A stretch of DNA of 64,000 bases, taken from positions 124,001-188,000 of the forward strand of contig JAHJKP010000013.1 in NCBI GenBank assembly GCA_018821985.1, read 5' to 3'. The notes under the pieces were generated by a model. The model was not told the origin of the DNA and ran no database searches. It saw nothing but the letters and a program-made list of their open reading frames with translations. The position numbers were made by a program, and so were the translations under genes. Origin of the DNA: Pseudomonadota bacterium (lineage in GTDB: Bacteria; Desulfobacterota; Desulfobulbia; Desulfobulbales; Desulfocapsaceae). Below, piece by piece: positions 29,995 to 43,888 of this stretch. Position 1 is the first letter of the stretch, and each line of letters starts with the position of its first letter.

Positions 29995-30078
29995 AAAAAG
30001 TTGTAGCGGAAAGGGTGGCATGGCTGGTGTTCTCCTTGTGTGAGCTTGCGGTGTTCTATCCAGAAAGGATACAGGGGA

Positions 30079-31617
30079 ATGGGATATAAAGAGATCACGG
30101 TCAAGCTGCCTCCTGATTATTCGCAGGAGCTGTTGCAGGCTCAGGTGGCAAAGGCAGAGGGCCTGCAAGATTTTTCCGTGCAGATAGTCCATAAAAGTCT
30201 GGATGCCCGAAAAAAAACAAACATCCATTGGCTGGTGCAGCTTGCTATTGTTTCTCCGGAGATCCCGGGGGAGGCTCCGCCCGCTCCTCCGCTATTGCAT
30301 ATCCCTTTTCGGAAGAGAAAAGAAAAGGCTCTGGTTGTCGGAAGCGGACCGGCCGGTTTCTTTGCTGCCTTTGTCCTGCAGAAGGCCGGTTTTGAGACGA
30401 CTCTGATTGAACGGGGGGCGGAGGTCCGGAAGAGGGAGGAAGGGATCAGGGTCTTTGAAGAGAGCGGGGTCTTTGACGCCAAAGGTAATTACGCCTTTGG
30501 CGAGGGAGGGGCAGGGACTTTTTCCGATGGCAAGCTGACGTCACGCACGAAAAACATATCTCGTGAAAAGGCTTTTATCCTCGAGAGTTATATTCAGGCC
30601 GGCGCCCCGCCGGAAATACGCTATCTGGCCCATCCGCACCTTGGCAGTGATAACCTGAAAAATATTGTCAGGGGGCTGCGTGAGGAGTTCATCAGGATTG
30701 GCGGCTCCATGCGTTTTGAGACCCTGCTTACCGATCTTGAGGTGCAAAAGGGCAGGGTTGTCAGCGCCTTGACGGACCAGGGGACCATTGAGGCGGATTA
30801 TTATGTCATCGCCCCTGGCCATTCCGCCCATGAAACCTATCGCATGCTGATCGGCAAGGGGGTGGGCTTCAGGCCCAAGAATTTTGCCATTGGCTGCCGG
30901 GTGGAACATCCGCAGGCCCTGATCAATCGGGCCCAATGGGGTCGGGAAGAGCTACCGGGGGTAAAGGCGGCTGAGTATCGCTTGACCTCCAAGGGCAATG
31001 GTAAGCTGCCGGTCTACACCTTTTGCATGTGTCCCGGGGGAGTAGTGGTTCCGGCCACCGCCTATGCCGATACCAATATCGTCAATGGCATGAGCCTCTA
31101 CAAACGGGATGGACAATTTGCCAATGCCGCCTGTGTGGCAGGGGTTAATCTGCATCAGCTCCTGGGCCGGGAACTGAGCGCCCTGGAGATCCTTGACTGG
31201 CTGGGCGCTCTCGAACGGGATTTTTTTCACTATGGCCATGGCTATCAGGCGCCCTACTGCCGGATCGATGACTTTATCCACTGCAAGGAGCCAAGAGGGG
31301 ATGTTCAGTCCAGTTATCCCTTGGGGCTTACGCCTGCGCCCCTGTGGAATCTCTTACCGCAGGAGATAATCGCCTCCATCCGGGAAGGGCTGAAGGAGTT
31401 CTGCCGCAAGATAAAGGGCTTTGAGAGCGGAATTATCATGGGCCTTGAGAGCAAAACCTCCTCGCCCATCCAGGTCCTGCGGGAGGCAGACGGACGTTGC
31501 TGCGGTTTTGAAAATCTCTTTCTGGTCGGTGAAGGCAGCGGCTATGCCGGCGGCATCATCTCCAGCGGCACCAATGGCATCAAGGCGGCGCTGCATATCG
31601 CCCAAGTTTGTTCATGA
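30079..31617 (+). CDS. FAD-dependent oxidoreductase (COG2509-type dehydrogenase)
   Basis: A 512-residue protein. Residues 1-75 are a small N-terminal domain typical of this family (YKEITVKLPPDYSQELL); the dinucleotide-binding fold follows (ALVVGSGPAGFFAAFVLQKAG) with FGEGGAGTFSDGKLTSR, a hallmark of the uncharacterised COG2509 dehydrogenases, and a C-terminal FAD signature (LFLVGEGSGYAGGIISSGTNG). The electron partner and substrate are unknown. The ATG at 30079 has AGGGGA upstream; the frame extends to 30040 without a better start. It is convergent with the giant envelope protein gene. Confidence 0.9.
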   Translation: MGYKEITVKLPPDYSQELLQAQVAKAEGLQDFSVQIVHKSLDARKKTNIHWLVQLAIVSPEIPGEAPPAPPLLHIPFRKRKEKALVVGSGPAGFFAAFVLQKAGFETTLIERGAEVRKREEGIRVFEESGVFDAKGNYAFGEGGAGTFSDGKLTSRTKNISREKAFILESYIQAGAPPEIRYLAHPHLGSDNLKNIVRGLREEFIRIGGSMRFETLLTDLEVQKGRVVSALTDQGTIEADYYVIAPGHSAHETYRMLIGKGVGFRPKNFAIGCRVEHPQALINRAQWGREELPGVKAAEYRLTSKGNGKLPVYTFCMCPGGVVVPATAYADTNIVNGMSLYKRDGQFANAACVAGVNLHQLLGRELSALEILDWLGALERDFFHYGHGYQAPYCRIDDFIHCKEPRGDVQSSYPLGLTPAPLWNLLPQEIIASIREGLKEFCRKIKGFESGIIMGLESKTSSPIQVLREADGRCCGFENLFLVGEGSGYAGGIISSGTNGIKAALHIAQVCS

Positions 31618-31662: not shown

Positions 31663-34600
31663 TCAGATTTCTCCTTTCTCTTTTGTCTTCTCAGCCTTCT
31701 GTCTCGGGCTACTATCCCAGAGCATCGGCTCATTTACGATTTTCCAACCCCATTTCAGTAGTCCGAGCAGGGTAAATGAGATCCACAGGGCCCAGGCCAG
31801 CATCGCCACTCGGTAGGCGAGCATGGGAATGGAGAACAGCCAGGCCTGTGGCAGATGGTTTCCGCTGAGGTCTTGATACCAGCGCAGCATCCTGCTGGTG
31901 GATCCATTACCGATAATATTCATGTCAGGGTGTCCCAGCAGTCCCTGGCTGATCGCCCAGACCAAGGCCATCATGGCCAGCACGGTCAGGAAACCGAGGC
32001 CGGTCTGGATCAGATCGAAGGAGTTCTTGTCTAGCTCTGCTCTGATTGACTTCCGGAAATGGAGGGCGACAAGCCAGCCCACCACCAGCAGGCAACTGAA
32101 GAGATTGCTCATGCTCATGCCGACGCCTAAGAGGAAAAGCTGGTGAAATCTCAGGGGTGTCAGGCCGCTTTTACTGATCGCGAAGGCCACCAGCGCCACC
32201 ACCAGCAAAGTTGACCAGTACAAAATAGCAGGGCCCATCAAGGGTCCGCCCAGGAAAAGTGGCCATCTGTCCTGCGGCAGGGTCACATCAATGGCGGTGT
32301 TGACGCTTGTCATGCCGAGATCAATCTGCGGTGTTCTGTAGAAAACGCTCAAGCCGGAAGGCTCACGCCATTCAAGGGAGATATCCTGTTTTCCGGGGAT
32401 GATCGGCAACGAGATTTTGGAGCCATCATGACGAACCTGCTGAATGGTACCGTTAATGGTGACCTTCTGCAGTTGCGCGGCGGCAGGCAGGGTGATGGCG
32501 TGCTGTCCCCCTTGACTGCTGCGGATTGACAGGTCCAGTTTGCCCTCGCTGGCCCGTTTTCCGGGACGCAGCTGGAGAGAACTCCTGTCAATGGTGAGGG
32601 TCTGGCCGTCGATGCCCTCAGGGCGTGAGATCTGCAATGTTACCTCTTCGCCGGGCCAGGGATGCCAGGTCGGATACCAGCGCGCTCCCTGTTGATGGAG
32701 GATAACCGGAATCCCCGCTGTTTCCATGTGGTAGATCGGACTGACATCAACCCGCCAGATCTCAGTCCATTGATCGGTCACGGCATGTTTCAGGATGAGC
32801 TGGTCGCTTTTCTCAAGGATTGACTCCCAGCGCAGTTCACTGTCCTCGGCATCAAGCGTAATCTTTGCCAGCCCTTCCTCCACCCGGACGCCTTCGGTGA
32901 GTACGGATTCTCCAGGAAGCAAGGGGATAGCCAGGACAATGGCCGAACCGCTTGGGCTCGTGCGGATGATCCTGGTTTCAACCTTCCAAGTCAGACCGAG
33001 CAGCAGGGTGCGCTCAATGAGGACAAAGGGCGGCAGGATTCCACTCTCCAGGATCTGGGTGGAGCTCTCCTCTTTGTTGACCACCCGTTTGAACTGGAGC
33101 TGATTGTCGGCGATCCCCTCATGGATTCCTTCCACAATCCAGCCCTGGATATCGGTGGTGATATGATGAGGACGCAGGGGCAGCGGAAGCTGGATGGTAT
33201 TCTGACCTGGAATCTTGCCTTGCAGCCGGATCTGATGCTTGCCTTCAGGCACCAGAATCCAGATTTGCTGCTCTGTCCTGAACAGAGCGGCTGCGGGCGT
33301 ATCATCGATAAAGACGTGTTGCGGCAGCCAGTGATTGGCATGGCCGGGAAGGGGAATGGCCCCATCAATCTGGCTGTCCACTAGCATGGTCAGGCTGAGG
33401 GTCTCCGGGCTCAAGGTAACGGCCATAGTGCTGATATCGGCACAGTCGGGAAAACAGTCCGCCTTTTCCAGGAGACGGGTGCGCAGTTGTTCAAACAGTT
33501 CCGGGCTGGGAATCTCACCGGCCTGGGCAGGCGATGGGCTATAGAGGAACCCTAAGAGAAACGGAAGAATAAAATAGCTTTTCCAATCCGGCAGTCCCCA
33601 GCCTCTGCCCGGTCGCCAGCTGATGTTCAACAGGCCCACGGCCAGCAGGGACATCAAGAGAACACGGGCAAAGGCAAGGAACAGATTGGTCTTCGGCCCG
33701 ATAAGGGTGAAGGTTATGTGCTGATCACGCTGTACCGGTCCCGACCAGTTCATGGGAATCGCCTTCCACTGCCACGCCGGCAGACCCGGCCCGGTCTGCT
33801 GGATCATCTTCGGGTCATATTGCGGGACTTGATTCTGATAGGGAGAAAGAGGGGCAACAGATTTGCTCATGAGCCGGTTCGCCTTTGCCATGGTGCCTCT
33901 GGCCATTTCTGCCGGTTGTGACACCGTATCCATGGCTGACTCCATGAGTACTGCATTCGGAACCAACCCTTTTACCGCTTGAGTTGGGCTTTCCTGTGGT
34001 GCTGCTTTTCGTTCCGTGAAAGTGGTCATGGACTGCCAGGGCTTTTCCAGTTGCGGATAAATCCCTACCCGTAACTGGTTGATGGCAAAGGGGACGGCAA
34101 TGACAATCAGGATGAGAAGGGTAATGGCTTGATATCCCTTGATGATCTGTCTGAATTTTCCTGCCGGCAGGTGGCGGAGCAGGGCCACACCCACCAGGAT
34201 GGCCAGCCACACCCATCGAGGCGCCCCTGATTCATGATAGCTGAGCACATAGGAAAGGAAGGCGATGACGGTCAATGTTGGTCGTGCATAGAGTCTGGAT
34301 ACGGTCAGGGTAAAGATGATGACCAGAAAAAAATCGAGCAGGCTCCAGCGCTCAATCCAGGTGTCGGCAATGGAGTCGATACCTGTGGCATTAAGGAGCT
34401 TCCAGCCAGGTGGCAGGTGGAGAGTAGCCTGGACCTTCAGGAAATCATGATCCCAGCCGGTTGCCGGCAGGGTGGAGATTCGGCCGGAGTAGGTGCTGTC
34501 AGCCGTGAGTTGCAACTGTCCTTCCCGTACTTCAACCCCTGCTTTTTCACTCCCTGCGCGTTTGGTGATGAACTGCTCCCGATTATTGACCATCACCCGG

Positions 34601-35772
34601 CCAAGTTCCATGGGAGGTGCCATCTCCAGCCGCCAGCCATTGTTTTTCTGACCGCTGATCGTGTCTTGGAAGGTGTAGCCGGAACCGTCAAAGCGCAGCC
34701 AGAGATTACGTTGCAGGCTTAATTGATCGGGAGGAGGCAGGGGAGAGCCGCGCCGTGTCTCCTTGAACTGCAGGGTATCCCCGGCAAGCAGCCGGTATGC
34801 AGGGAAGGTGCGCCATTCTTCAGGCATGGAGGTCAGCAGGGGATCAACGGGTAAAGCCCCTTCAATTTCCACGGTGCGCAGATCGGGATGGGCCAGGAAG
34901 GAAATGAACTCTTCAGAGGGCCAGAAGCGGTCGTCAGGCCGGACCCTTTGATATGTTGCTATCGGGCCGACCTGCCGGGTGGTGAGCTTTATTGTCCATT
35001 GTCCGGGCCGGACTTGAACCCGTATCCTGCCGTCAGGCTCAAGTCGTGCCGGAAGATCACCTGTCAGGGAGAGGGGGATGGTCTGTCCTGGGACAAAGGC
35101 CGGCCCGAGTTGAACTTCTCTGGCGGCTCCAGCGATATCCAGTTTGAGCAGGGTTACCATCTGTGCAGGGATAGTGTCATCAATAAGCCGGAAGGTTTGC
35201 AGGGTCAGGCTGTTTTCAATTTTTTCCGTCTTTTCTCTTGAGGTCTGTAGCCAGAGTCGGTTGTTGCTGTCAAAATTGGGAAAATCAATGGACAGCTCTT
35301 TCAGAACCAGGGAGATGAGGCCGGTATGGGCCGGGATAGTTAGACATTCAGGAAGCCTTGACCACTGAAAGTGTCCGCTGATTTCATAGCTGCCGCTCTT
35401 TACCCTTATCTTGGGGACGCCTTCCCTGTTCATGACCATGGCTGGCTGGTCGTTCACCTTGACATCAACCGGCCAATGCTCTGCATCTCCTGGAAGCTGC
35501 AACCAGCGTTCATGCTGGACCAGCCAATGCTGCCGGAAAGAACCCCCCAGTTCCGTCACCCTGATATCAAGTTGTGACGGCCATTCGCACACAAGAACGG
35601 AGGAATCATTGTAGGAAGGAGGGCAAAGCAGTTCTTCCTCATGTCCCTGAAGAACCCAGTACACCCAGGGGGCTAATGGGGAAGGAATCTTGGTCGGGTC
35701 TGTCGCATGAGAAATATCAGGGGAGAGCCAGGTGAGAATAAAGAAGAAGATGATTCCGGCGCAGAAATTCAT
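31663..35772 (-). CDS. Very large envelope protein with internal duplication, unknown function
   Basis: 1,369 residues from ATG 35772, chosen for its ribosome-binding site (AGGAG nine bases upstream) and because it opens with a signal peptide (MNFCAGIIFFFILTWLSPD). Layout: beta-rich periplasmic region about 25-470; about four membrane helices about 474-580 (LLDFFLVIIFTLTVSRL first); a polar linker; one or two helices about 700-770; a second beta-rich region about 770-1185; a last helical membrane bundle about 1190-1355. The two periplasmic halves are related: LPGDAEHWPVDVKVNDQPA near 93 and LPGHANHWLPQHVFIDDTP near 808 are each followed by an aliphatic beta stretch. Both halves begin with a Cys-Pro-type segment. 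I know similar large hypothetical proteins in other proteobacteria but no function. Its neighbours are dsrC and the FAD oxidoreductase. Confidence 0.75.
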   Translation of the reverse strand: MNFCAGIIFFFILTWLSPDISHATDPTKIPSPLAPWVYWVLQGHEEELLCPPSYNDSSVLVCEWPSQLDIRVTELGGSFRQHWLVQHERWLQLPGDAEHWPVDVKVNDQPAMVMNREGVPKIRVKSGSYEISGHFQWSRLPECLTIPAHTGLISLVLKELSIDFPNFDSNNRLWLQTSREKTEKIENSLTLQTFRLIDDTIPAQMVTLLKLDIAGAAREVQLGPAFVPGQTIPLSLTGDLPARLEPDGRIRVQVRPGQWTIKLTTRQVGPIATYQRVRPDDRFWPSEEFISFLAHPDLRTVEIEGALPVDPLLTSMPEEWRTFPAYRLLAGDTLQFKETRRGSPLPPPDQLSLQRNLWLRFDGSGYTFQDTISGQKNNGWRLEMAPPMELGRVMVNNREQFITKRAGSEKAGVEVREGQLQLTADSTYSGRISTLPATGWDHDFLKVQATLHLPPGWKLLNATGIDSIADTWIERWSLLDFFLVIIFTLTVSRLYARPTLTVIAFLSYVLSYHESGAPRWVWLAILVGVALLRHLPAGKFRQIIKGYQAITLLILIVIAVPFAINQLRVGIYPQLEKPWQSMTTFTERKAAPQESPTQAVKGLVPNAVLMESAMDTVSQPAEMARGTMAKANRLMSKSVAPLSPYQNQVPQYDPKMIQQTGPGLPAWQWKAIPMNWSGPVQRDQHITFTLIGPKTNLFLAFARVLLMSLLAVGLLNISWRPGRGWGLPDWKSYFILPFLLGFLYSPSPAQAGEIPSPELFEQLRTRLLEKADCFPDCADISTMAVTLSPETLSLTMLVDSQIDGAIPLPGHANHWLPQHVFIDDTPAAALFRTEQQIWILVPEGKHQIRLQGKIPGQNTIQLPLPLRPHHITTDIQGWIVEGIHEGIADNQLQFKRVVNKEESSTQILESGILPPFVLIERTLLLGLTWKVETRIIRTSPSGSAIVLAIPLLPGESVLTEGVRVEEGLAKITLDAEDSELRWESILEKSDQLILKHAVTDQWTEIWRVDVSPIYHMETAGIPVILHQQGARWYPTWHPWPGEEVTLQISRPEGIDGQTLTIDRSSLQLRPGKRASEGKLDLSIRSSQGGQHAITLPAAAQLQKVTINGTIQQVRHDGSKISLPIIPGKQDISLEWREPSGLSVFYRTPQIDLGMTSVNTAIDVTLPQDRWPLFLGGPLMGPAILYWSTLLVVALVAFAISKSGLTPLRFHQLFLLGVGMSMSNLFSCLLVVGWLVALHFRKSIRAELDKNSFDLIQTGLGFLTVLAMMALVWAISQGLLGHPDMNIIGNGSTSRMLRWYQDLSGNHLPQAWLFSIPMLAYRVAMLAWALWISFTLLGLLKWGWKIVNEPMLWDSSPRQKAEKTKEKGEI

Positions 35773-35916: not shown

Positions 35917-35956
35917 AAAAAAAAAGGGGAGACGCCTAGAATGGCATCTCCCCTTT
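35917..35956 (-). terminator. Rho-independent terminator of dsrC
   Basis: On the minus strand an 11-bp stem with one mismatch (GGGGAGACGCC at 35926-35936 against 35943-35953) around a six-base loop is followed by a nine-base U-run (A-run 35917-35925). It sits 27 bases after the dsrC stop. Confidence 0.88.
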
Positions 35957-35983: not shown

Positions 35984-36301
35984 TTATACACAACCGGTTG
36001 GTTTTGGCAGGCCAGCCATCTTACAAGCACCTTTACCAGGGCCGGAAGGGAACAACTCATAAATTCTTTTCAATGGAAAGCCAGTGGTCTTGGAAAGAAT
36101 ACGTACCATTGGGGCAATACCGTTCTTCTTGTAGTATTCTTGAAGAGCATCAATTACTTTTCTGTGCTCGTCAGTCATCTCGCTAATACCCTCAACACTT
36201 TTTACGTATTCAACCCAATTCTCATTGAATTCTTTGGCGTTGAGCAGGAATCCGTCTTCATCTACTTCAAAGCTAGATCCACCGTGTTCTAATGTAGGCA
36301 T
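35984..36301 (-). CDS. dsrC: DsrC sulfur-carrier protein of dissimilatory sulfite reduction
   Basis: DsrC is the co-substrate of dissimilatory sulfite reductase: its two C-terminal cysteines carry the reduced sulfur as a trisulfide that is passed to the DsrMKJOP membrane complex. The 105-residue protein ends GACKMAGLPKPTGCV; the two cysteines are eleven residues apart, as required for a true DsrC rather than the single-cysteine TusE type. The N-terminus (YDEDG-like FEVDEDGFLLNAKEFNENW) and RILSKTTGFPLKRIYELFPSGP are family-typical. AAGGAGGG precedes the ATG, a strong promoter and its own terminator flank it, so it is expressed as a single, probably abundant transcript. dsrAB are not nearby, which is usual. 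Confidence 0.97.
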   Translation of the reverse strand: MPTLEHGGSSFEVDEDGFLLNAKEFNENWVEYVKSVEGISEMTDEHRKVIDALQEYYKKNGIAPMVRILSKTTGFPLKRIYELFPSGPGKGACKMAGLPKPTGCV

Positions 36302-36561: not shown

Positions 36562-37359
36562 TTATTTCTCTTTTTGTCTGTTCCCTTCAGGGATGATCGT
36601 CAGGGCGTCATCTATATGCCGGCAGAACATATCACCGATGGCCGGCAAGGTGCCAATCCCCTGTTCTATGATTTCCACCTTGATATCCGCCTGGGCCAGG
36701 AGGTTCATCCATGAATCTTTGTTTTTTCCAGTCAGATCCCGGTAGAAATGCATCCCTGCCACCAGCAGCAGAGGGATGATGCAGACCTCTTTGTAGCCGG
36801 CAGCAGTGAGATCGGCAATGACCTCTTTACTTGAGGGGATACATTCTTCAATCACCCCGACAAAGAGCCTGGGGCCAAAGTGCCTGCGCATGAAATATTG
36901 AAGGGCCGGGTAGGCACACCAGGCAGGATGATCGGTACCATGTCCCACCAGAAGGATGGCCTGGTCGGGATGAGCGTTGATCAGGGGGGCGAGACTGACG
37001 CAGAGATCCTGGTAATCTGACGGAGAACTGAGCAGGGGCAGGCCGATTGAGGTGCGGAGGGGACTTTTTTTCGTCTCGTCCACCAGACGGATGAACTCAT
37101 GTCCACCGAGCAGGTGGAGTGATTGAACGACTGCCCACGAATAGTGTTGGCGCGATAATAGTTCCAGTACCTCGTGGGGACTGGAAATCATATCTTGCTG
37201 CTGGTCTGTGGCCTTCTCTTTGATCATCCGTGATGACCAGGCCCAGAAAATCTCATGGTCACGGAAGCGCTCTCTGATCCTGGCGTCCAGAAGATCATAA
37301 CTGGCTCGAGCCTTTGCGGTGGTACCAAAAGCAGCAATGACAATGGGGATGGGGCGCAT
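36562..37359 (-). CDS. cbiK: CbiK-type sirohydrochlorin chelatase
   Basis: A 265-residue class-II chelatase that inserts Co2+ or Fe2+ into sirohydrochlorin, for cobalamin or sirohaem. Both expected metal-binding histidine motifs are present: LLVGHGTDHPAW (His near 145) and LLLVAGMHFYRDLTG (His near 205). No signal peptide is seen, so this is the cytoplasmic form; some sulfate reducers also have a periplasmic one. AGGAAG precedes the ATG at 37359. Location next to dsrC is suggestive because sirohaem is the cofactor of dissimilatory sulfite reductase, but the two genes have separate transcripts. Confidence 0.93.
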   Translation of the reverse strand: MRPIPIVIAAFGTTAKARASYDLLDARIRERFRDHEIFWAWSSRMIKEKATDQQQDMISSPHEVLELLSRQHYSWAVVQSLHLLGGHEFIRLVDETKKSPLRTSIGLPLLSSPSDYQDLCVSLAPLINAHPDQAILLVGHGTDHPAWCAYPALQYFMRRHFGPRLFVGVIEECIPSSKEVIADLTAAGYKEVCIIPLLLVAGMHFYRDLTGKNKDSWMNLLAQADIKVEIIEQGIGTLPAIGDMFCRHIDDALTIIPEGNRQKEK

Positions 37360-37886
37360 GTCTCTTCCTGAAAGAAGGTGTCTGTTATTCACAAGGGCTT
37401 GCTTGATTATCGGTCAGTTATTTCAGAGAGCCGGGGGAACGGATGGAGGCACGTCCAGAGCAGTTCTTTCCTCTCTTCCTATCGTAATTTATCTCGAAAA
37501 ACGATAAAAAAATGTAATCATCGAGTGATTCGCTGTCGGCATCTGTTGATAGGTGGAGCTCTGTTAGACGTGCCTTGGTCGGTTTTTTTCTGCCCCTGCC
37601 CGCTATTGACCCGGATCGTCAATGTCAGGAGTTCCGGCAGCTGGTGGAGATGAAATTTCTCTAAGCCCTTGTCGCACAGGATAACACTGCTTGGATATGA
37701 TAAGATAGTCCATAAAGAGACGTAATAGAATGGTTAGAAACCTAATGGGTATTCTGTAACAAGTCTTAAACTTTTTATTCCGTTCCCCCCATTTTCCTGC
37801 TACATTACTTATGGTCTTCTTGAGATCAGAGCTCATTTGCTCTTCACACTAATAATACTATTATGCCTTTGATCAGGAGTAACTCC
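37360..37886. other. Divergent intergenic region, cbiK / citrate synthase
   Basis: About 530 bases with no credible gene. It must hold the cbiK promoter on the minus strand and the citrate synthase promoter on the plus strand. A weak inverted repeat, TATCGT at 37479-37484 and ACGATA at 37500-37505, is the only structure noted. I found no tRNA or recognised riboswitch. Confidence 0.35.
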
Positions 37887-42172: not shown

Positions 42173-43888
42173 ATGTTTAGTAATCTCAGTATAAAATGGA
42201 AAATGCTTCTTCTTGCCCTGCTTGGTCCTCTGTTGATTGCCTCCATTCTGGCCTGGCAAAGGGTGAGTGATATCCGCCAGGGGGCTGAGGCTGCCATGAT
42301 CTCTAAGAGTGCCAGCATTGTCCTGATGGCTGAGGCGACCCGTGACCGGATGGCCAAAAAGCTGCAGCTTGGGGTTATCAGGCCTTTTACGGAGATAGAT
42401 CCCTCCCTGATAGTCGAAGCCGTTCCCATTGTCACCGCCCTTCAGGTTGCCGGCGATAAGGCCCAGGAGGCAGGATATGTTTTTCGCTCGCCCAAAGTGG
42501 ATCCGCGCAATCCGCTCAATGCCCCAACCGAGCTTGAACGTCAGGTGCTGGCAGAGATGGAGAGCCAGGGGCTGAAAGAGAAGATCATTGTCGAAAAGGA
42601 TCAGATTCGATACTTCAAACCTATTTTTTTGACTGAGGAATGTTTGTATTGTCATGGTGACCCCAAGGGGGAAAAAGATGTTGCCGGTGGAGTCAAGGAA
42701 GGGTGGAAAGTTGGCGAGATGCATGGTGCTTTTGAGATTATAAGTTCGCTTGCTGAGACCAATAAGGCTGTTGCTCAGGCACGGTTGAGTGTTCTGGCCT
42801 GGGTGGCCGGGACTCTTCTCCTGATTTTTCTTGTCTCCTGGCTTTTTCTGCAGAAAAACGTGATCAAGCCTCTTTCTGAAGCTAATGTATTTATGGATAA
42901 GGTTGCCAAGGGCGATCTTACCGGAACCATTGTTGCCCATTCGCGTGATGAAATCGGGCAGATGGTCGAGAACCTGAATCGGATGAGCAGGCAATTGAAC
43001 TCCATTGTTAAAGAGATTGCTCAATCGGGATCGACCCTGCTTGATTCCTCCTCACAGCTTGGTTCTGTGGCCGATGATTTTTCGTCCAAGACAGAAGATA
43101 CAGCCGGCAGGACGCAGTCAGTTGCTGCTGCGGCAGAGGAGATGAGTGCCAATATGGCGACGGTTGCCGCTGCCACTGAAGAGGCTGCGACGAATATTTC
43201 TCTGGTGTCAGCCGCTACAGATGAGATGACGTCGAATATCAAGGGTATTGTTATATCCACTGAAAAGGCAAAGATCATTACCAGCAATGCGGTGGCTGAG
43301 GCCAAATCGGCCTCTGAAAAGGTGGATGAGCTTGGATCCGCAGCTTTGGAAATTGGCAAGGTGACGGAGGCCATTACGGAAATTTCCGAGCAGACGAATC
43401 TGCTGGCCTTGAACGCGACCATTGAGGCAGCCCGGGCCGGAGAGGCCGGTAAGGGTTTTGCAGTGGTGGCCAATGAGATCAAGGAACTGGCCAAGCAGAC
43501 TGCGGCGGCAACCGGTGAGATCACGACCAGGGTTCATTCGATTCAAGGTTCTACCAATACGACGGTCAAGCAGATCCAGCAGATCACTCAGGTCATTGGA
43601 GAGGTTAATGCCATTGTCGCCTCCATTGTTACAGCAGTTGAGGAGCAATCGGCAACCACTACCGATATTGCGGAAAGTATCAGTCAGGCCTCTATCGGCA
43701 TCCAGGAGGTGACGGAGAATGTTGCCCAGGTCTCGATTATTGCCGGTGATGTGGCCCAGGATATTGCCGAGGTCAATCAGGCATCGGAGGCCATCTCTCA
43801 GGGGAGTGGCAATGTAAGATCGAAGGCGGGTGAGTTAAGCCATCTGGCCGAACAGTTGCAGGAACTGGTTGGCCGCTTTCGGGTATAG
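42173..43888 (+). CDS. Haem-binding (DUF3365-type) methyl-accepting chemotaxis protein
   Basis: A 571-residue receptor. First membrane helix about 10-30 ([18 protein letters not shown]), a periplasmic sensor domain about 31-200 with one c-type haem motif CLYCH (about residue 160), second helix about 205-227 ([19 protein letters not shown]), HAMP, and a signalling domain with the hairpin tip [21 protein letters not shown]. Haem-containing sensors of this DUF3365/Tll0287-like class detect redox state or gases such as O2, NO or CO. No CheR pentapeptide ends the protein. A bacteriohemerythrin follows on the same strand, which fits an oxygen or redox response. AGGAACGG lies ahead of the ATG. Confidence 0.9.

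Follow-up and report, generated by a model that had tools for sequence, protein, structure and literature searches.

What does a 1,369-amino-acid (aa) envelope protein do when none of the libraries searched holds a name for it? The question is raised by one gene in a 64,000-nucleotide (nt) stretch of DNA from a Pseudomonadota bacterium (Desulfobacterota, Desulfobulbales, Desulfocapsaceae in the GTDB lineage; assembly GCA_018821985.1, contig JAHJKP010000013.1, positions 124,001 to 188,000 of the forward strand), the whole of which is referred to here as the window. The gene encodes a real, unnamed, duplicated envelope protein in which a known type of beta-sandwich is set in an unusual architecture.

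The gene and its family

The gene occupies positions 31663..35772 of the minus strand, from an ATG at 35772 preceded by AGGAG to a stop at 31663, and the limits of its 1,369-aa precursor rest on the open reading frame (ORF) and on alignments of 27 and 52 family rows. There is one copy in the 3.3-Mb genome, and the ratio of nonsynonymous to synonymous substitution (dN/dS, NG86) against four close relatives (0.15 to 0.19) indicates purifying selection; the gene is real and constrained. A first reading of the letters (the original prediction) had placed a giant protein here, set it in the envelope and offered no described function for it, and these calls held: the envelope location is supported, and neither Pfam nor NCBIfam returned a match to the protein at E values up to 1. 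PADLOC also lacked a match at E values up to 1, and a role in a defense system was set aside on that search. Weak Pfam rows were attributed to chance (CSG2 was best, with E = 9 × 10−4 in 1 of 27 aligned members, followed by Hepar_II_III_C with E = 0.015 in 4 of 27). Sequence comparison gave no credible relative of solved structure, and none of the titles or abstract openings returned by a literature search named the protein family.

Scanning genome contigs for a sequence pattern yielded 29 relatives, of which 26 were aligned with the window protein to give the 27-row alignment (L018 and L026, both fragments, and L028, which contains a stop, were omitted). The 52-row alignment adds a relative from Azoarcus and further ORFs only if longer than 1,250 aa; it includes L031 and L033, whose genomes appear to be those of L006 and L005, respectively. 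Identity to the window protein ranges from 24 to 91% across its 51 relatives. Counting partial matches and copies with stops, the gene was matched in 29 of 395 sampled genomes of the phylum and 63 of 242 genomes of the order, the remaining 179 giving no match, and its distribution is therefore patchy.

Duplication of the periplasmic module

Does the protein repeat a whole module, as the original prediction held? The test set beforehand, an HHalign comparison of the two halves, was well above noise: in the 52-row alignment, residues 24 to 475 matched residues 755 to 1165 with a probability of 98% and E = 1.2 × 10−13 over 381 columns. Shorter segments gave E = 6 × 10−14 (residues 45 to 130 against 765 to 850) and E = 4.9 × 10−12 (24 to 190 against 755 to 900), the latter to be set against controls of E = 0.16 for a reversed profile and E = 0.28 to 0.5 for six column shuffles. 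The 27-row alignment gave a match for the N-terminal parts (E = 2.2 × 10−10) but none for the parts that follow (E = 0.045 to 0.096). Subdomains pair in conserved order (D1 with D3, E = 3.5 × 10−13; D2a with D4a, E = 1.4 × 10−6), and because D1 and D3 are also similar to D4 (E = 3 × 10−5 and 8 × 10−6), each module resembles an array of related sandwiches. Two LPG-A-HW motifs had been noted about 710 residues apart, each after a Cys-Pro-type segment; LPGDAEHWP (L93, W100) and LPGHANHWLP (L808, W815) lie 715 residues apart, with a Cys pair ahead of each (C50/C62 and C773/C777). Judged from these profile comparisons, the periplasmic beta-module is duplicated.

In the membrane bundles, only the topology is repeated. 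HHalign found no sequence similarity between the bundles of the two halves (E = 0.12 to 0.29), and among helix profiles the pairs TM1-TM7 and TM2-TM8 were each best in their own row, at modest E values of 3 × 10−4 and 4 × 10−3, TM denoting a predicted transmembrane helix. Homology of TM6 and TM12 through a common arginine was considered and rejected, as their ungapped profile score was negative, other offsets scored better and the profile E value was 0.14. The claim of a whole-module repeat thus stands for the beta-modules in sequence and for the bundles in topology.

Topology and an internal export signal

The precursor, all on the minus strand, opens with an N-terminal signal peptide or TM1 (residues 1 to 23, 35704..35772), a hydropathy peak that ends in ...DISHA and is presumably cleaved there. 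The first periplasmic beta-module of tandem sandwiches (residues 24 to 475, 34348..35703), delimited by AlphaFold, HHalign, fold matches and conservation, is followed by the first membrane bundle of TM2 to TM5 (residues 476 to 571, 34060..34347), placed by model and conservation and carrying D480 and a loop with H513-E514. A variable, mostly disordered periplasmic linker (residues 572 to 660, 33793..34059) is marked by poor conservation and a low predicted local distance difference test score (pLDDT), and after it come a beta-hairpin, which in the model apparently supplies the last part of the preceding sandwich, and TM6, which carries R703 (33625..33792; model, fold match and conservation). 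The second half begins with TM7 (residues 724 to 751, 33520..33603), an internal signal-peptide-like helix that ends in AQA and is the most TM1-like helix of the C half. The second beta-module (residues 752 to 1170, 32263..33519), resting on the same four kinds of evidence as the first, leads into the second membrane bundle (31666..32262; model, hydropathy and conservation), made up of TM8 to TM11, the conserved periplasmic loop GLLGHPDMN..GNGS..WYQD (residues 1277 to 1301), TM12 with R1321 and a basic tail. Averaged hydropathy and AlphaFold helices place TM2 to TM5 at residues 478 to 571, TM6 at 693 to 714, TM7 at about 732 to 750, TM8 to TM11 at 1179 to 1275 and TM12 at about 1315 to 1340. 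Of the stretches tested, the six predicted to be cytoplasmic are basic (mean K+R of 1.9 to 6.9 versus D+E of 0 to 2.5), unlike the two periplasmic turns. From hydropathy, AlphaFold helices and loop charges, both halves share a common plan: each consists of an export signal, a beta-module, four helices, a periplasmic segment and one helix.

The original prediction had placed a signal on the first module alone; the second also starts with a signal-peptide-like helix. TM7 terminates in SPSPAQA directly ahead of the second beta-module, and an [AVST]xA site was found among the 16 residues that end at the invariant P755 in 42 of 52 rows, some of them with the site shifted by a few residues in the alignment. 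Seven other helix ends put to this test scored 4 to 27 of 52 rows, and seven of the ten rows missed at TM7 carry CxA, GxA or AHS in the corresponding position; as the rows are related, these counts are not independent. At the level of sequence, a conserved internal export-signal pattern is present in the family. Because the second copy opens with such a helix and a nearby AxA-type site, cleavage may turn the precursor into a pair of paralogous subunits.

Both C50 and C62 are conserved in 52 of 52 rows and C773 and C777 in 45, while 29 tryptophans are conserved at ≥85%. D1301 (51 of 52) and H513 (50 of 52) are also nearly invariant, as is D480 (51 of 52) in TM2, one of three intramembrane charges along with R703 (TM6, 46 of 52) and R1321 (TM12, 44 of 52). 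If the precursor stayed uncut, its 12 helices, arranged as two sets of one helix, a large periplasmic domain and five helices, could form an RND-like transporter in which these three charges might couple ion flow to transport. The hydropathy and charge pattern fits such a protein and so does the conservation of the charges, yet TM1 and TM7 resemble cleavable signals, the TM6 and TM12 profiles do not align, and the library searches that came back empty at E values up to 1 included the RND/SecDF/MMPL families. Nor was any RND chain among the best 50 Foldseek rows for either half, a search in which the poorly modeled membrane part was barely probed. On balance, an RND-like transporter seems unlikely.

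Predicted fold

AlphaFold2 models of two overlapping halves had mean pLDDT values of 73.8 and 64.7. The beta-modules are mostly confident with a few low loops, and most of the 572-to-660 linker is disordered; structure prediction, proposed in the original prediction as a check, bore out the beta-modules and served the membrane parts poorly (predicted TM-scores of 0.44 and 0.31). In Foldseek searches the N half matched first a yeast oligosaccharyltransferase chain (6ezn_A; E = 4.8 × 10−7, TM-score by query of 0.23), then three further oligosaccharyltransferase chains and then M1 peptidases; the top rows had low TM-scores (0.21 to 0.24 by query, 0.32 to 0.37 by target). For the C half, two integrins came out on top and a human oligosaccharyltransferase chain third (E = 5.7 × 10−6); glycosylphosphatidylinositol (GPI) transamidase chains were also among the matches. 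We take 6ezn_A and the matched oligosaccharyltransferase chains to be Ost1/ribophorin I. In VIA-align, the N half superimposed on F3 aminopeptidase with Z = 12.0 (3.0 Å over 141 residues) and the C half on aminopeptidase N with Z = 9.7 (2.8 Å over 113 residues); the N half also gave Z of about 11 against oligosaccharyltransferase chains over 300 to 324 residues, but with a root mean square deviation of 6 to 14 Å. Since model residues 324..667 match residues 1..169 of the M1 chain, the four-helix bundle and linker seem, in the model, to be inserted before the last strands of a sandwich. The fold matches are a domain-level resemblance, from which no function follows.

These matches bear on a second explanation, that the protein is a generic periplasmic capture or assembly factor whose beta-arrays hold a protein or glycan for another envelope enzyme, after the model of the accessory subunits of the endoplasmic reticulum oligosaccharyltransferase and of GPI transamidase; the corrinoid gene context described below would then be incidental. 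That oligosaccharyltransferase chains fill the top four rows for the N half and the third for the C half, that GPI transamidase chains appear, that no catalytic family was found and that many gene neighborhoods show no theme all suit this explanation. It has to contend with the low TM-scores, with integrins leading the C half and with single sandwiches that match M1 peptidases as well. STT3 (PF02516), moreover, was found in 4 of the 29 carriers versus 86 of the 395 genomes overall and was not matched in the present genome, a distribution on which an oligosaccharyltransferase subunit as such was rejected. The broader capture role remains a serious candidate, if a somewhat unlikely one. An accessory of an exosortase/PEP-CTERM sorting system is scarcely credible by the same kind of count: exosortases are common in the phylum (157 of 395 genomes), but they occur in 11 of 29 carriers, which is about the overall rate, and none was matched in this genome; this role was rejected.

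Corrinoid gene context

Gene neighborhoods point, tentatively, to a ligand. The original prediction had proposed examining them across Desulfobulbales and had stressed dsrC and a flavin adenine dinucleotide (FAD) oxidoreductase; these two are not conserved partners, and the genes recurring in divergent lineages were those for corrinoid (B12) metabolism. The context set comprised 75 hand-picked loci, 74 of them distinct (L027 and L102 are one locus), with flanks that vary in length (median of about 5.9 kb per side), and was compared with 40 control regions placed at round coordinates, not at random, on long contigs of nine genomes. Corrinoid genes lay nearby in 16 of 74 distinct loci versus 0 of 40 control regions, a difference that is indicative only, because the genes sought were picked after the neighbors had been seen, the seeds were taken from the loci themselves and the flanks are unequal.

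In the f83 lineage, a same-direction run of cbiD, cbiE/T, cbiF, cbiG and cbiH in L080 stops 2 nt short of the ORF (taking longest-ORF starts; cbiD, cbiE, cbiT, cbiF and cbiH above the NCBIfam cutoff and cbiG below it) and the same cbi order in L078, assigned by seed similarity, ends 16 nt before it. In the g249/g2 lineage, locus L112 has a cobalamin riboswitch, cbiK, a btuC-like and a btuD-like gene and cbiL, with the gene about 120 nt further on and then a Usp gene; in L127 a btuF-like binding protein is added to this series. Within these two sets, only cbiL of L112 exceeds the NCBIfam cutoff (the best rows of its btuC-like and btuD-like genes fall below), and Pfam confirms cbiK of L112 (PF06180, E = 3 × 10−64), which has a signal-like N terminus. 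Also in the g249/g2 lineage, btuC, btuF and/or cbiL lie upstream in L073, L106, L107, L109 and L110, and two of these loci, L109 and L110, have cobalamin riboswitches. The third lineage is that of the window, in which, as in six close relatives, a cbiK-family (sirohydrochlorin cobaltochelatase) gene lies upstream of dsrC (36562..37392 of the minus strand in the window; PF06180, E = 2.3 × 10−50). By eye, this window copy has no obvious signal peptide, and the cbiK genes of L112 (2040-3026) and L127 have a signal-like start; there are possibly cytoplasmic and periplasmic versions of cbiK.

The favored reading, a tentative proposal of low to moderate confidence, is that this envelope protein binds corrinoids, tetrapyrroles or cobalt compounds at the inner membrane or moves them. 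Several observations weigh against it, beginning with the post hoc choice of genes and seeds. In 58 of 74 distinct loci the available flanks hold no corrinoid genes (6 of the 75 have <700 nt upstream and are hardly informative), and the 16 that do hold them fall into only three lineages. Three of the five f83 loci with upstream DNA (L084, L085 and L086) have no cbi gene, a sixth, L081, having too little upstream DNA for context, and in L107, L109 and L110 an opposite-strand gene separates the corrinoid genes from the gene. Across the order, cbiD was found in 43 of 63 carriers versus 115 of 179 noncarriers (Fisher P = 0.65), and the 20 carriers without it include the nearly complete genomes G483 and G487. 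No cobalamin riboswitch reached the gathering score in the window or eight other loci, and Rfam as a whole gave no match to the window at that score. Only two histidines, H513 and H1091, are conserved at ≥85%, and hence no clear metal or tetrapyrrole site is apparent; the membrane parts are middling to poor in the models. Given the lack of co-occurrence with cbiD, the 20 carriers without it and the riboswitch negatives, de novo B12 synthesis is not needed for the gene and was rejected as a requirement; the gene may still act in uptake, in salvage or in the handling of cobalt, or the grouping may be incidental.

A 2004 survey describes in Desulfovibrio a B12-element unit of cbiK-cbiL and btuCDF, notes that cbiK-bearing delta-proteobacteria lacked the cobalt transporters known at the time, and proposes cbtX as a candidate (PMC545781). 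If the B12 context is meaningful, it would point to corrinoid or cobalt handling in a group in which, by that survey, cbiK-bearing species lack the transporters then known (PMC545781).

Under the corrinoid/cobalt proposal, the protein would be an inner-membrane precursor whose two halves are paralogues, each having an export signal of its own, each presenting an array of sandwiches like the M1 N-terminal domain to the periplasm and each anchored by five helices (four, a periplasmic segment and one). Cleavage by signal peptidase ahead of residue 752 is probable, as in a cytochrome b/c1 fusion precursor, and would leave a membrane heterodimer. Together with conserved loops that lie at the membrane surface (QTGPGLP; GLLGHPDMN..GNGS), the beta-arrays could form a binding site over a passage through the membrane, for which the most likely ligand would be a corrinoid, a tetrapyrrole precursor or cobalt, and the protein might hold this ligand for the inner membrane or pass it across. 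It is quite unlikely that the family represents a new kind of two-subunit envelope machine made from one cut precursor, its paired paralogues acting as a new type of corrinoid, tetrapyrrole or cobalt carrier; duplication and fusion would in that case have retained the second export signal.

dsrC and other neighboring genes

The gene nearest upstream in the window is dsrC (35984..36301, minus strand), the only PF04358 match in the genome, and a role in dissimilatory sulfur metabolism might be read from it. By phmmer, dsrC lies upstream of the gene in the window and in L002, L004, L005, L006, L007 and L009, which makes 7 of 81 loci, all close relatives; it was absent from the available flanks of the other 74. 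A strong terminator-like hairpin of 14 pairs and a T tail (35923..35956, minus strand; hairpin search) stands between dsrC and the gene, a relative occurs in Azoarcus, and most genomes of the order gave no match to the gene. A sulfur role is therefore very unlikely, and dsrC was dismissed as a general partner on account of the few loci and the intervening terminator. The FAD-dependent protein on the other side (30040-31617, PF21688 C-terminal domain by Pfam) is a convergent gene, 46 nt away in the window and in L119 and 0.9 to 4.1 kb off in five other loci, and not a conserved partner. The original prediction's weight on these two neighbors is thus not borne out.

Most neighborhoods across the loci lack a theme. 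Peptidyl-prolyl isomerase (PPIase) neighbors in six loci were dropped, four being at similar distances in one group and two elsewhere. A 137- to 157-aa protein is encoded no more than 34 nt past the gene, in the same orientation, at five of six f83-family loci (L078:899-1354, L080:1362-1814, L081:4934-5407, L085:6413-6874 and L086:11537-11950) and is a possible partner; the four scanned with Pfam (L078, L080, L085 and L086) gave no match. In 7 of 7 g2/g249 loci an M16 (insulinase-type) peptidase of ∼940 to 1,030 aa lies downstream on the other strand, beyond the Usp gene (L107:1647-4583 and L112:11147-14230, both scanned with Pfam, with equivalents in L073, L106, L109, L110 and L127). Elsewhere in the window, positions 42173-43888 encode a chemotaxis receptor whose sensor domain is Tll0287-like (Pfam PF11845, E = 1 × 10−28).

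Distribution

Reach beyond Desulfobacterota was judged from plasmid, phage and IMG/VR records and the contig pattern scan. The Azoarcus relative, on megaplasmid pAZKH (35% identity over 91%), was the sole match among plasmid records, and a second search of these with the pAZKH protein as query recovered only itself. IMG/VR, searched with the 27-row alignment, and phage records returned no relatives; a viral or plasmid origin was rejected on these results. No member with a single half was identified in a set restricted to ORFs of >1,250 aa, in which short genome matches were left aside. The gene copy of L083 (G276:C22) is interrupted by in-frame stops, which mark either a pseudogene or an error of assembly. 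Widespread and diverse as it is, the family has neither name nor model nor function in the libraries searched.

Comparison with known systems

The gene set ahead of L112 and L127 resembles the Desulfovibrio unit of riboswitch, cbiK, cbiL and btuCDF, although the part of the survey describing that unit mentions no large downstream envelope gene, and the cobalt-transporter candidate given there is another protein, cbtX (COG3366) (PMC545781). With the M1 zinc aminopeptidases (LTA4H, ERAP and APN) the window protein shares, in its single sandwiches, the fold of the N-terminal domain, at the best Z value obtained, but it has no M1 family match and no HExxH motif in its sequence. Ost1/ribophorin I appears alike, by the fold matches, in its tandem beta-sandwiches on the exoplasmic side of the membrane; it is a far shorter protein with a single transmembrane helix, and its family (PF04597) is unmatched in this genome at E values up to 10, as is STT3 at E values up to 0.001. 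The RND/SecDF superfamily agrees with the predicted helix count before any cleavage, 2 × (1 + periplasmic domain + 5), and differs in that no family match was obtained, the periplasmic modules are beta-sandwiches and TM1 and TM7 are signal-like. Closest in its proposed processing is FbcH, the cytochrome b/c1 fusion precursor, a single chain cut at an internal signal sequence between two membrane proteins; the parts of FbcH are unrelated proteins, whereas the two halves of the window protein are paralogues.

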